Shown: positions 35,866-37,677 of the stretch, piece by piece
How the letters are laid out: each line of letters begins with the position of its first letter
Position numbering within the stretch: position 1 is the stretch's first letter
From: Aureimonas ureilytica DSM 18598 = NBRC 106430
Lineage (GTDB): Bacteria > Pseudomonadota > Alphaproteobacteria > Rhizobiales > Rhizobiaceae
Reading direction: 5' to 3'
Assembly (NCBI RefSeq): GCF_000382705.1
Contig: NZ_ARQE01000001.1
Span: forward strand, 601,551 to 665,550
Length of the DNA stretch: 64,000 nt
Notes under the pieces: model-generated
Databases searched by the model: none
Seen by the model: the letters and a program-made list of their open reading frames with translations, nothing else
Told to the model about the DNA's origin: nothing
Translations under genes and position numbers: made by a program

Positions 35866-36930
35866 ATGGCCGATTTCAAGCCTCTCGTCTTTTCCGGCAT
35901 CCAGCCGACCGGCAATCTCCATCTCGGGAACTATCTCGGCGCCATCCAGAAGTTCGTCGCCCTTCAGGCCACGCAGGACTGCATCTTCTGCGTCGTGGAC
36001 CTCCACGCCCTGACCGCGCAGCTCGTGCAGGACGACCTCGCCCAGCAGACGCGCGAGATCGCCGCCGCCTATCTCGCCGCCGGCATCGACCCCAAGCGCC
36101 ATATCGTCTTCAACCAGTCCGCCGTGTCCGGCCATGCCGAACTCGCCTGGGTCTTCAACTGCGTCGCCCGCATCGGCTGGATGGAGCGCATGACCCAGTT
36201 CAAGGACAAGGCCGGCAAGGACCGCGAGCGCGCCTCGCTCGGCCTTCTCGCCTATCCGAGCCTCATGGCCGCCGACATCCTTCTCTACCGCGCGACGCAC
36301 GTGCCCGTCGGCGACGACCAGAAGCAGCATCTCGAACTCACCCGCGACATCGCGACCAAGTTCAACCACGACTTCTCCGCCCGCATCGAGGCCAAGGGTC
36401 TCGGCGTGCCCATGGCCATGGGCGAGGAAACCGTGAACGGCTACTTCCCGCTCGCCGAACCCCTGATCGAAGGGCCGGCGACGCGCGTCATGAGCCTCAA
36501 GGACGGCTCCAAGAAAATGTCGAAGTCGGACCCGTCCGACCTCTCGCGCATCAACCTCACCGACGACGACGAGACCATCGCCAAGAAAATCCGCAAGGCC
36601 AAGACCGACCCGGACGCGCTGCCCTCCGAACCCGCCGGCCTCACTGGGCGGCCCGAGGCCGACAATCTCGTTGGCATCTACGCCGCCCTCTCCGAGCGCT
36701 CCAAGGCCGATATCCTGACCGAATTCGGCGGGCGGCCCTTCTCGGAGTTCAAGCCGGCCCTCGCCGACCTCGCCGTCGAAAAGCTCGCGCCCATCGCCGG
36801 CGAAATGCGCCGCGTCCTCTCGGACCCCGCCGAAATCGACCGCACCCTCCAGGACGGCGCCGAGCGCGCCCGCGCCCTCGCGGACCGGACGCTCGCCGAC
36901 GTCAAGTCCATCCTCGGTCTCATGGGCTGA
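35866..36930 (+). CDS. trpS: Tryptophan--tRNA ligase
   Basis: The 354-residue class I synthetase charges tRNA-Trp. It has the HIGH-equivalent [11 protein letters not shown], the KMSKS motif KKMSKSD and [28 protein letters not shown] is typical of TrpRS. The C-terminal tRNA-binding helix region is complete. ATG 35866 is right for the family. It is followed within 25 bp by a dense cluster of palindromes, which probably ends its transcript. Confidence 0.97.
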
Positions 36931-36950
36931 GGGTGGACGCGGGGGTTCGG

Positions 36951-37129
36951 CGGGGCTACCGCCCCGGACCCCGTCCGGGAAGGACTTCCCGGGCCCTTCG
37001 CTTCTTTTGGGACTTTTCCGAGATCGGGGAGGGCCGCCGGCCCTCCCCGATCTCGGACACATCGCCCAAGAGAAGAGGGGTCCAGGGGAAATCATTTCCC
37101 CTGGCGGGGTGAAGGGGCCGAGCCCCTTC
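36951..37129. repeat. Cluster of palindromes between trpS and the usp gene
   Basis: Six inverted repeats occur within 180 bp. They are CGGGGC/GCCCCG (36951-36966), CCCGGAC/GTCCGGG (36963-36979) and CCGGGAA/TTCCCGG (36975-36992). Then comes a 41-nt perfect palindrome with 20-bp arms and a single central C (37017-37057). It is flanked by CTTCTTTTGGG (37001-37011) and CCCAAGAGAAG (37065-37075), which extend the same stem with one wobble. A 23-nt palindrome with 11-bp arms and a central C follows (37082-37104), then GAAGGGGC/GCCCCTTC (37111-37129). Such arrays look like a mosaic intergenic repetitive element. It may also terminate trpS. Confidence 0.85.
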
Positions 37130-37185
37130 GTGCCCAAGCGTCTCACCCGCTTGCCGCCCGCCGGACGGGCTGGCATGGTCCGGCC

Positions 37186-37677
37186 ATGGTATCCAAGCGA
37201 CTCGGGCGTGACGCGGGCGGGCGGCGCAAATTTCTGGCCATCGTGGACGAGACGCCCGAATGCGGGCGGGCGGCGGCCTATGCGGCGCGGCGCGCCAAGG
37301 CGAGCGGCGGCGCGGTCGTGTTTCTCTATGTGATCGACGCGGCGGATTTCACGCAATGGCTCGGCGTCGGCGACATCATGCGCGCCGAAGCGCAGGAAGA
37401 GGCGCAGACGCGCCTGTCGCGCCTGGCCGAGGACATCCGCACGGCGGTCGGCATCGAGGCCGAGACGATCCTGATCGAGGGCAAGACGGCCGACGAAATC
37501 CGCACGCTGATCGAGGCGGACCGCGAGATCGCGATCCTGGTTCTGGCGGCGAGCGATGCGTCGGACGGGCCGGGGCCGCTGGTGTCGGCCGTGGCGGGCT
37601 CCGGTTCGGCCTTCCCGATCCCGGTGACGATCGTGCCGGCGACCTTGAGCGACGAGGAAATCGAAAGCCTCTGCTGA
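37186..37677 (+). CDS. Universal stress protein (UspA family)
   Basis: The 163-residue single USP domain shows FLAIVDETPECGRAAAYAARRAKAS, VVFLYVIDAADF and ILIEGKTADEIRTLIEADREIAILVLAASD. The C-terminal GSGSAFPIPVTIVPA is near the ATP-binding loop, though the GxxG motif is modified. USPs respond to growth arrest, but the role here is unknown. It follows the palindrome cluster and precedes a convergent CDF transporter. Confidence 0.88.
   Translation: MVSKRLGRDAGGRRKFLAIVDETPECGRAAAYAARRAKASGGAVVFLYVIDAADFTQWLGVGDIMRAEAQEEAQTRLSRLAEDIRTAVGIEAETILIEGKTADEIRTLIEADREIAILVLAASDASDGPGPLVSAVAGSGSAFPIPVTIVPATLSDEEIESLC

Follow-up and report, generated by a model that had tools for sequence, protein, structure and literature searches.

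The locus examined here lies in Aureimonas ureilytica DSM 18598 (contig NZ_ARQE01000001.1), within a stretch of 64,000 nucleotides that is called the window below. In this window trpS (tRNA-synt_1b; 35866-36930, forward strand) is followed by a co-directional gene for a universal stress protein (Usp, here usp; 37186-37677, forward strand), and between them is the core of a repeat (36950-37129, forward strand) that begins 19 bases from the trpS stop codon. The core corresponds to positions 1-178 of a covariance model, R1, that was built from 31 copies (G000:C1:638500-638679, G000 being this genome; E = 7.3e-40). An earlier note on this DNA had described six inverted repeats between the two genes, and all of the arms that it named are present in position.

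From 5' to 3' the parts of the core follow the order H1-S1-H2-S2/S3-H3-S3'/S2'-H4-S1'-H5. H1 (36951-36966) is a 6-bp hairpin, CGGGGC/GCCCCG (36951-36956/36961-36966), with a 4-base loop and a stem that is invariant across the 31 aligned copies. It precedes the 5' strand of stem S1 (CCCCG, 36969-36973; partner 37105-37109) and H2 (36975-36992), for which an inverted-repeat search gives the 8-bp arms CCGGGAAG/CTTCCCGG (36975-36982/36985-36992). The pyrimidine-rich 5' strand of S2 and S3 (GCCCTTC and CTTCTTTTGGG, 36993-37011; partner 37065-37081) leads into H3 (37017-37057), a central palindrome of 41 nt with 20-bp arms (37017-37036/37038-37057) and a 1-base loop. The arm length and single central base had been recorded correctly in the earlier note, but its term 'near-perfect' was wrong, as the arms are perfect. 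Elsewhere H3 is mostly a 19-bp stem, variable in sequence with its pairing kept. The purine-rich 3' strand of the stem beneath H3 (S3' and S2', 37065-37081) comes next, followed by H4 (37082-37104), the second odd palindrome of the note, for which a perfect pair of 11-bp arms was found (37082-37092/37094-37104; loop TCA, AAATCATTT). The 3' strand of S1 (S1', CGGGG, 37105-37109) and a terminal hairpin, H5 (37111-37129; arms GAAGGGGC/GCCCCTTC at 37111-37118/37122-37129), complete the core.

The long-range stems S1 and S2/S3 are seen both in the sequence and in the predicted fold, including the outer stem 37001-37011/37065-37075 on which the note had remarked. Folded as single-stranded DNA, 36940-37140 (201 bp) reaches -76.3 kcal/mol, compared with a mean of -46.5 (sd 3.6) for shuffled sequences (z = -8.33; 0 of 200 shuffles as low), which bears out the observation. 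H1 comes first in this fold; the S1 stem then closes around H2, the S2/S3 stem bearing H3, and H4; and H5 comes last. A search of 36800-37300 against the curated RNA families of Rfam produced 16 matches, all below the gathering score, and a known Rfam RNA was rejected as a candidate.

A dispersed intergenic mosaic repeat

The earlier note had made its interpretation depend on how many copies exist. In the organism's own genome (5.09 Mb, 44 contigs), a DNA search places the repeat at seven positions: one is the window copy itself (100%), and the remaining six have 78-88% identity, five of these six matching nearly the whole of the 201-base query. The R1 model returns the same seven places (E ≤ 1.3e-24), the next candidate having E = 0.11, and the idea of a single-copy terminator is rejected by both searches. 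The opposite strand is matched as well by five of the seven copies, at 71-82% identity (the window copy at 75%), which makes the whole element a quasi-palindrome.

The repeat family is present in 14 of 21 Aureimonas genomes by covariance-model search, with 4-19 copies per genome among the matches listed. Among named genomes, an exact core pattern has matches in A. ureilytica NS365 and A. pseudogalii DSM 102238. Under stricter filters, a family-wide search was positive in five of 199 genomes, two of them in Aureimonas itself, two strongly in one other genus (g102) and one weakly in a third (g23). An order-wide search, again with stricter filters, was positive in 11 of 397 genomes including this one, the other ten having weak and mostly shorter matches (best E 8e-11 to 4e-5). 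The order-wide loci L186-L192, from other families of the order, are compact multi-hairpin matches over 88-125 bp with a similar scaffold, and the three that were displayed (L186, L187 and L189) are without H3; these are possibly an ancestral or a convergent form, and homology with the repeat is not claimed. Among the papers listed by literature searches, mostly beyond subscription journals, none describes such a repeat in Aureimonas.

From the matches listed, in which one place can appear on both strands, 140 distinct copies with flanks were compared (135 from the 14 Aureimonas genomes and five from outside), so that the family numbers at least 140. Genes around them were called by codon scores trained on the window, and 139 of the 140 copies overlap no called gene by more than 15 bp. 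The feature in the window is thus a member of a dispersed family of intergenic mosaic repeats, BIME/RIME-like in character, in which a sequence-conserved scaffold of hairpins (H1, H2 and H4, and less strictly H5) encloses a central stem, H3, that is largely free in sequence while its arms match.

The mosaic includes a second palindrome, GGGCGAGCCNCNGGTCTCGCCCGTCC, which at up to two mismatches has 29 matches in 12 of the 21 genomes. All 12 are carriers of the repeat; there were no matches in the carriers G009 and G011 or in the seven non-carriers, and a reversed control pattern gave 0 matches. Coordinates put 16 of the 29 within the repeat or at its edge. When the 140 copies were scanned separately, at up to three mismatches, the palindrome was found in 16: five at the 5' end, all forward (L024, L124, L138, L146 and L168), seven at the 3' end, all reverse (L026, L143, L157, L172, L173, L174 and L177), and four internal (L112, L128 and L132, inside H2, and L176). 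It points inward at both ends of the repeat, and it appears to resemble the CGTC-tagged REPs. With seven places in one genome, carriers throughout much of the genus and a palindrome nested within copies, the mosaic repetitive element proposed in the earlier note is supported.

Shared sites, gains and flips in place

When copies were grouped into sites by the match of both flanks, a procedure that may split or miss sites, 40 sites were obtained, of which eight are singletons and 32 are common to at least two genomes. One of the 32 is common only to two genomes of the other genus, and the remaining 31 are each shared by two or more of the 14 Aureimonas carriers. In all, 132 of the 140 copies stand at a site common to at least one other genome, which fits inheritance combined with concerted evolution and in-place inversion. 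Every one of the 14 carriers has a copy at hisB-hslV, and in the seven other genomes of the genus the same junction is a short intergenic region with no such element (by eye; no model match). For this and other sites, the names hisB, hslV, acnA, ccmA, binding protein and permease were given by eye from translations, those of trpS and usp otherwise. The window's own site, trpS-usp, is filled in nine of 14 carriers. Among the unfilled ones, inspected by eye, G007 and G016 look clean, G015 has an apparent remnant, and short stretches rich in GC are seen in G017 and G004. In G011 (L048, L147) and G014 (L053, L143), trpS is flanked by repeat copies on both sides (sites 30 and 4).

A tree of hslV with 900 bp, in which long branches are flagged and synteny may break, resolves little, and the same is true of hslV alone. 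The grouping of G007 with G016 is firm in both trees. G000 and G020 are starred in the hslV + 900 bp tree, where the flag marks long branches meeting, and join at 94/88 with hslV alone; G011 and G014 join at 85/84 with hslV alone and are not joined in the longer alignment.

Orientation changes at sites that otherwise stay in place. At nine sites with at least five copies each, site 1 being left out, the minority orientation accounts for 26 of 72 copies. Across nine chosen pairs of close genomes, 31 flipped cases were compared, and in 26 of them neither end of the best inverted interval lies more than 4 bp inside or 12 bp outside the core; in the other five an end lies at least 20 bp from the core end. 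An inversion is favoured here by construction, because orientation was called beforehand, and the informative part is that the flanks are collinear. At hisB-hslV, for example, the flips between G000 and G020 and between G007 and G016 have interval ends 4-8 bp outside the core, with an outer inverted repeat that stays collinear, and the flip between G013 and G020 reaches 42-44 bp.

These data bear on whether the repeat is a non-autonomous mobile element (MITE/REPIN-like) served by a transposase in trans, with the orientation differences reflecting repeated insertion at preferred sites. Its dispersal in the own genome and the nested second palindrome are what such an element would show, as is the near-identical H3 arm that recurs at five sites in G018. 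The region upstream of acnA also speaks for it: this is filled in only two of 21 genomes (G011 and G014), and by eye a promoter-like sequence is conserved in the others, which indicates a lineage-specific gain. However, no target-site duplication was seen by eye at the acnA gain, where the flanks have diverged, and flanks whose collinearity, in most flipped pairs (26 of 31), ends only a few bases from the core, the 132 copies at shared sites and one site filled in every carrier all argue against repeated insertion. Nor was a RAYT transposase found: the Y1/RAYT family (PF01797) is absent from all 21 genomes of the genus, with the control positive in five of 14 named genomes, and the explanation of mobility by a RAYT gene, raised in the earlier note, was rejected. 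A mobile element in this sense is unlikely, although some other enzyme may move the repeat. What survives of the note's comparison with REP/BIME or MITE-like units is a dispersed, intergenic mosaic without the RAYT/Y1 link and with at least one lineage-specific gain, upstream of acnA; that fresh mobile insertions predominate is not supported.

Rewriting of the central stem

Covariation was assessed in 31 of the 140 copies, chosen among the 34 loci that the DNA search had given, three of which were left out. Both sides have changed at 13 of the 19 pairs of H3, and 98.5% of cells are paired; for the whole structure, covariation is 0.233, compared with 0.087 after shuffling and at most 0.076 after sliding. 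The stem varies widely: of the 140 copies, 123 entered the H3 comparisons, and 103 different 5' arms occur in them. A copy had to keep 15 or more of the 19 pairs to be included, and the rate of pairing in this set is therefore no independent support. Three copies of 134-136 bp (L134, L142 and L155, in G017 and G018) have no central palindrome that could be found, so that H3 looks like an optional module.

Two further features relate to how H3 is rewritten. The first is that its loops occur in both directions (for example AGC in 31 copies vs GCT in 13; GCC in 13 vs GGC in 10). In the scaffold, 114 of the 140 copies have an H1 loop of a single forward pattern, and the reversed form is absent among the classes listed; for H4, a strict pattern identifies TCA as the loop of 85 copies and never TGA, with 55 copies off pattern. 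Since H4 loops are never found reversed, template switching alone is insufficient to explain the scaffold. The second is that single-sided departures from H3 pairing, read in the transcript sense of 67 tandem copies, comprise 18 G-U and 21 A-C. There is no excess of G-U over A-C, which, with small numbers, argues against selection on H3 at the RNA level and fits a DNA-level process better.

Copies also resemble others in the same genome. In 128 copies, mean identity is 0.712 within a genome at different sites (612 pairs), 0.696 at the same site in different genomes (323 pairs) and 0.626 for pairs that share neither (7193 pairs). Between the distant genomes G014 and G017, same-site identity is 0.519 and different-site identity 0.544, with within-genome values of 0.72 and 0.71. 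Between the close genomes G009 and G012, the same site gives 0.823 vs 0.683 for different sites; orthologous copies are still more alike here, which implies that homogenisation is slow.

Placement relative to genes

The repeat tends to lie just past the ends of genes. For 160 of 276 resolved flanks the nearest gene end is a stop codon, at a median of 15 bp from the core, and for the other 116 it is a start codon, at a median of 77 bp. The 138 copies with two resolved neighbours divide into 74 tandem, 43 convergent and 21 divergent contexts. Convergent contexts are enriched, at 43 of 138 copies vs seven of 101 other gene pairs separated by 40 bp or more (Fisher 2e-6) and vs 23 of 207 of all other pairs at the same loci (Fisher 4e-6), copies and loci from the same site being non-independent in both tests; counted by site, the figures are 14 of 39 vs five of 43 window gene pairs (p 0.009). 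The distal H3 stem has an A+T content of 0.456 at convergent (n = 34), 0.322 at tandem (n = 67) and 0.329 at divergent sites (n = 20), an excess that reaches significance by copy (p 0.0003) and falls short of it by site (p 0.08) in a comparison that was chosen after looking. Convergent sites in several genomes have H3 forms consisting of an A-tract, a GC stem and a T-tract, for example the G018 arms AAAAAGGGGGCC/GGCCCCCTTTTT.

These observations suggest, with roughly equal odds for and against, a 3'-end hairpin, largely indifferent to direction, that would end or attenuate transcription arriving from either side and protect transcript ends, a role that would fit best between convergent genes and at junctions between solute-binding-protein and permease genes. 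At the 21 copies between divergent genes it is not applicable. Against it also counts the window copy, where the consensus of an intrinsic terminator, a GC hairpin followed directly by a T run, has 0 sites in 36850-37250. The same evidence weighs on the simplest form of the idea, namely that the repeat is no more than an intrinsic terminator working in both directions, strongly selected and never dispersed as a unit. Placement past stop codons, the convergent enrichment and the A+T-flanked GC hairpins at several convergent sites are what it would predict, yet the six other copies in the own genome share the scaffold at 78-88% identity and are hence homologous, divergent sites exist, and the window copy is without the consensus. 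A plain terminator is for these reasons very improbable.

Three sites (L018 with its site 1 orthologues, L007 and L037) lie at solute-binding-protein/permease junctions of ABC transporter operons, and 11 carriers have a copy at site 1, as does one genome of the other genus. These junctions recall the REP between malE and malF. The element is here always opposed to transcription (18:0), vs 28:28 for tandem orientation outside the three junctions; the contrast, which comprises three sites, was picked after seeing the data, and this counts against the reading. Over 133 copies, RNA stability averages -120.0 in the element sense and -118.8 for the other strand (paired p 0.03), the sense being stronger in only 55% of them.

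It may instead be asked whether transcripts matter at all, as the repeat might act purely as DNA, for instance as a nucleoid-protein or gyrase site or as a replication barrier. The lack of G-U bias among H3 mismatches (18 G-U, 21 A-C), the near self-complementarity of the whole (75% for the window copy against its reverse strand) and the divergent sites would all be compatible with this. Its position is nevertheless tied to stop codons, and its orientation is fixed at the three intercistronic junctions, and a role solely in DNA would seem distinctly improbable.

Relation to known repeats

Among described elements, the closest in kind are the BIME/REP of E. coli and the GTAG- and CGTC-tagged REPs, which are likewise extragenic palindromic mosaics (PMC3733652, PMC2267715). 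Roles in termination, mRNA stabilisation and supercoiling have been proposed for REP/BIME (PMC3733652, PMC2267715). The REP/BIME unit measures 20-40 bp, whereas that of Aureimonas extends over some 180 bp and contains five or more hairpins. The two are alike in dispersed intergenic copies and mosaic modules; the Aureimonas repeat differs in having no RAYT-type gene in 21 genomes, 4-19 copies per genome among those listed, and a central stem of free sequence. With RIME, the Rhizobium-specific intergenic mosaic element, the likeness is by name, as a rhizobial intergenic mosaic (PMC2873474). Bru-RS of Brucella and CIR of Caulobacter and Brucella are also small structured intergenic repeats of Alphaproteobacteria, and are set apart from the Aureimonas repeat by description, Bru-RS by its shorter length of 103-105 bp and CIR by its two-armed form with a GANTC motif (PMC2267715, PMC2229807). 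The enterobacterial ERIC, a 127-bp intergenic hairpin repeat, acts on mRNA stability in a manner for which orientation is crucial, and differs by description in its host, its terminal inverted repeats and its target-site duplication (PMC2229807). The published signatures of template switching are arms of inverted repeats that have become homogenised and spacers or loops that have been inverted; in the descriptions consulted, the inverted spacers are of a few bases (PMC8604942, PMC8794818). In Aureimonas, by comparison, the inverted unit is a core of some 180 bp, and 19-bp stems are replaced at bacterial sites that are themselves conserved.

Collectively, the reading that we favour, with a probability a little under 0.6, is that of an intergenic mosaic repeat with a role at 3' ends, whose inherited sites are reshaped by conversion and template switching. 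Lying just past stop codons, the hairpin block would end or attenuate transcription and shield transcript ends, and inside operons it would be held in one orientation. Most sites are passed on by inheritance, with an occasional gain; copies in one genome are homogenised, probably by ectopic conversion, and template switching between inverted arms would probably rewrite H3 and invert the core in place. A bolder variant, which we hold only tentatively, is a repeat that rewrites itself, where the scaffold would be a hotspot for template switching such that the stem is replaced again and again, the core inverted and the scaffold homogenised, with transcription through operons halting the flips by selection.

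The origin, spread and upkeep of bacterial intergenic palindromes is a question of long standing, in a field where compensatory change is generally taken as a sign of RNA selection. In this family, the 31 sites common to at least two of the 14 genomes make stem rewriting, inversion, homogenisation and gains traceable site by site, and free flipping at other tandem sites, set against none at the three binding-protein/permease junctions, supplies an internal contrast for testing.
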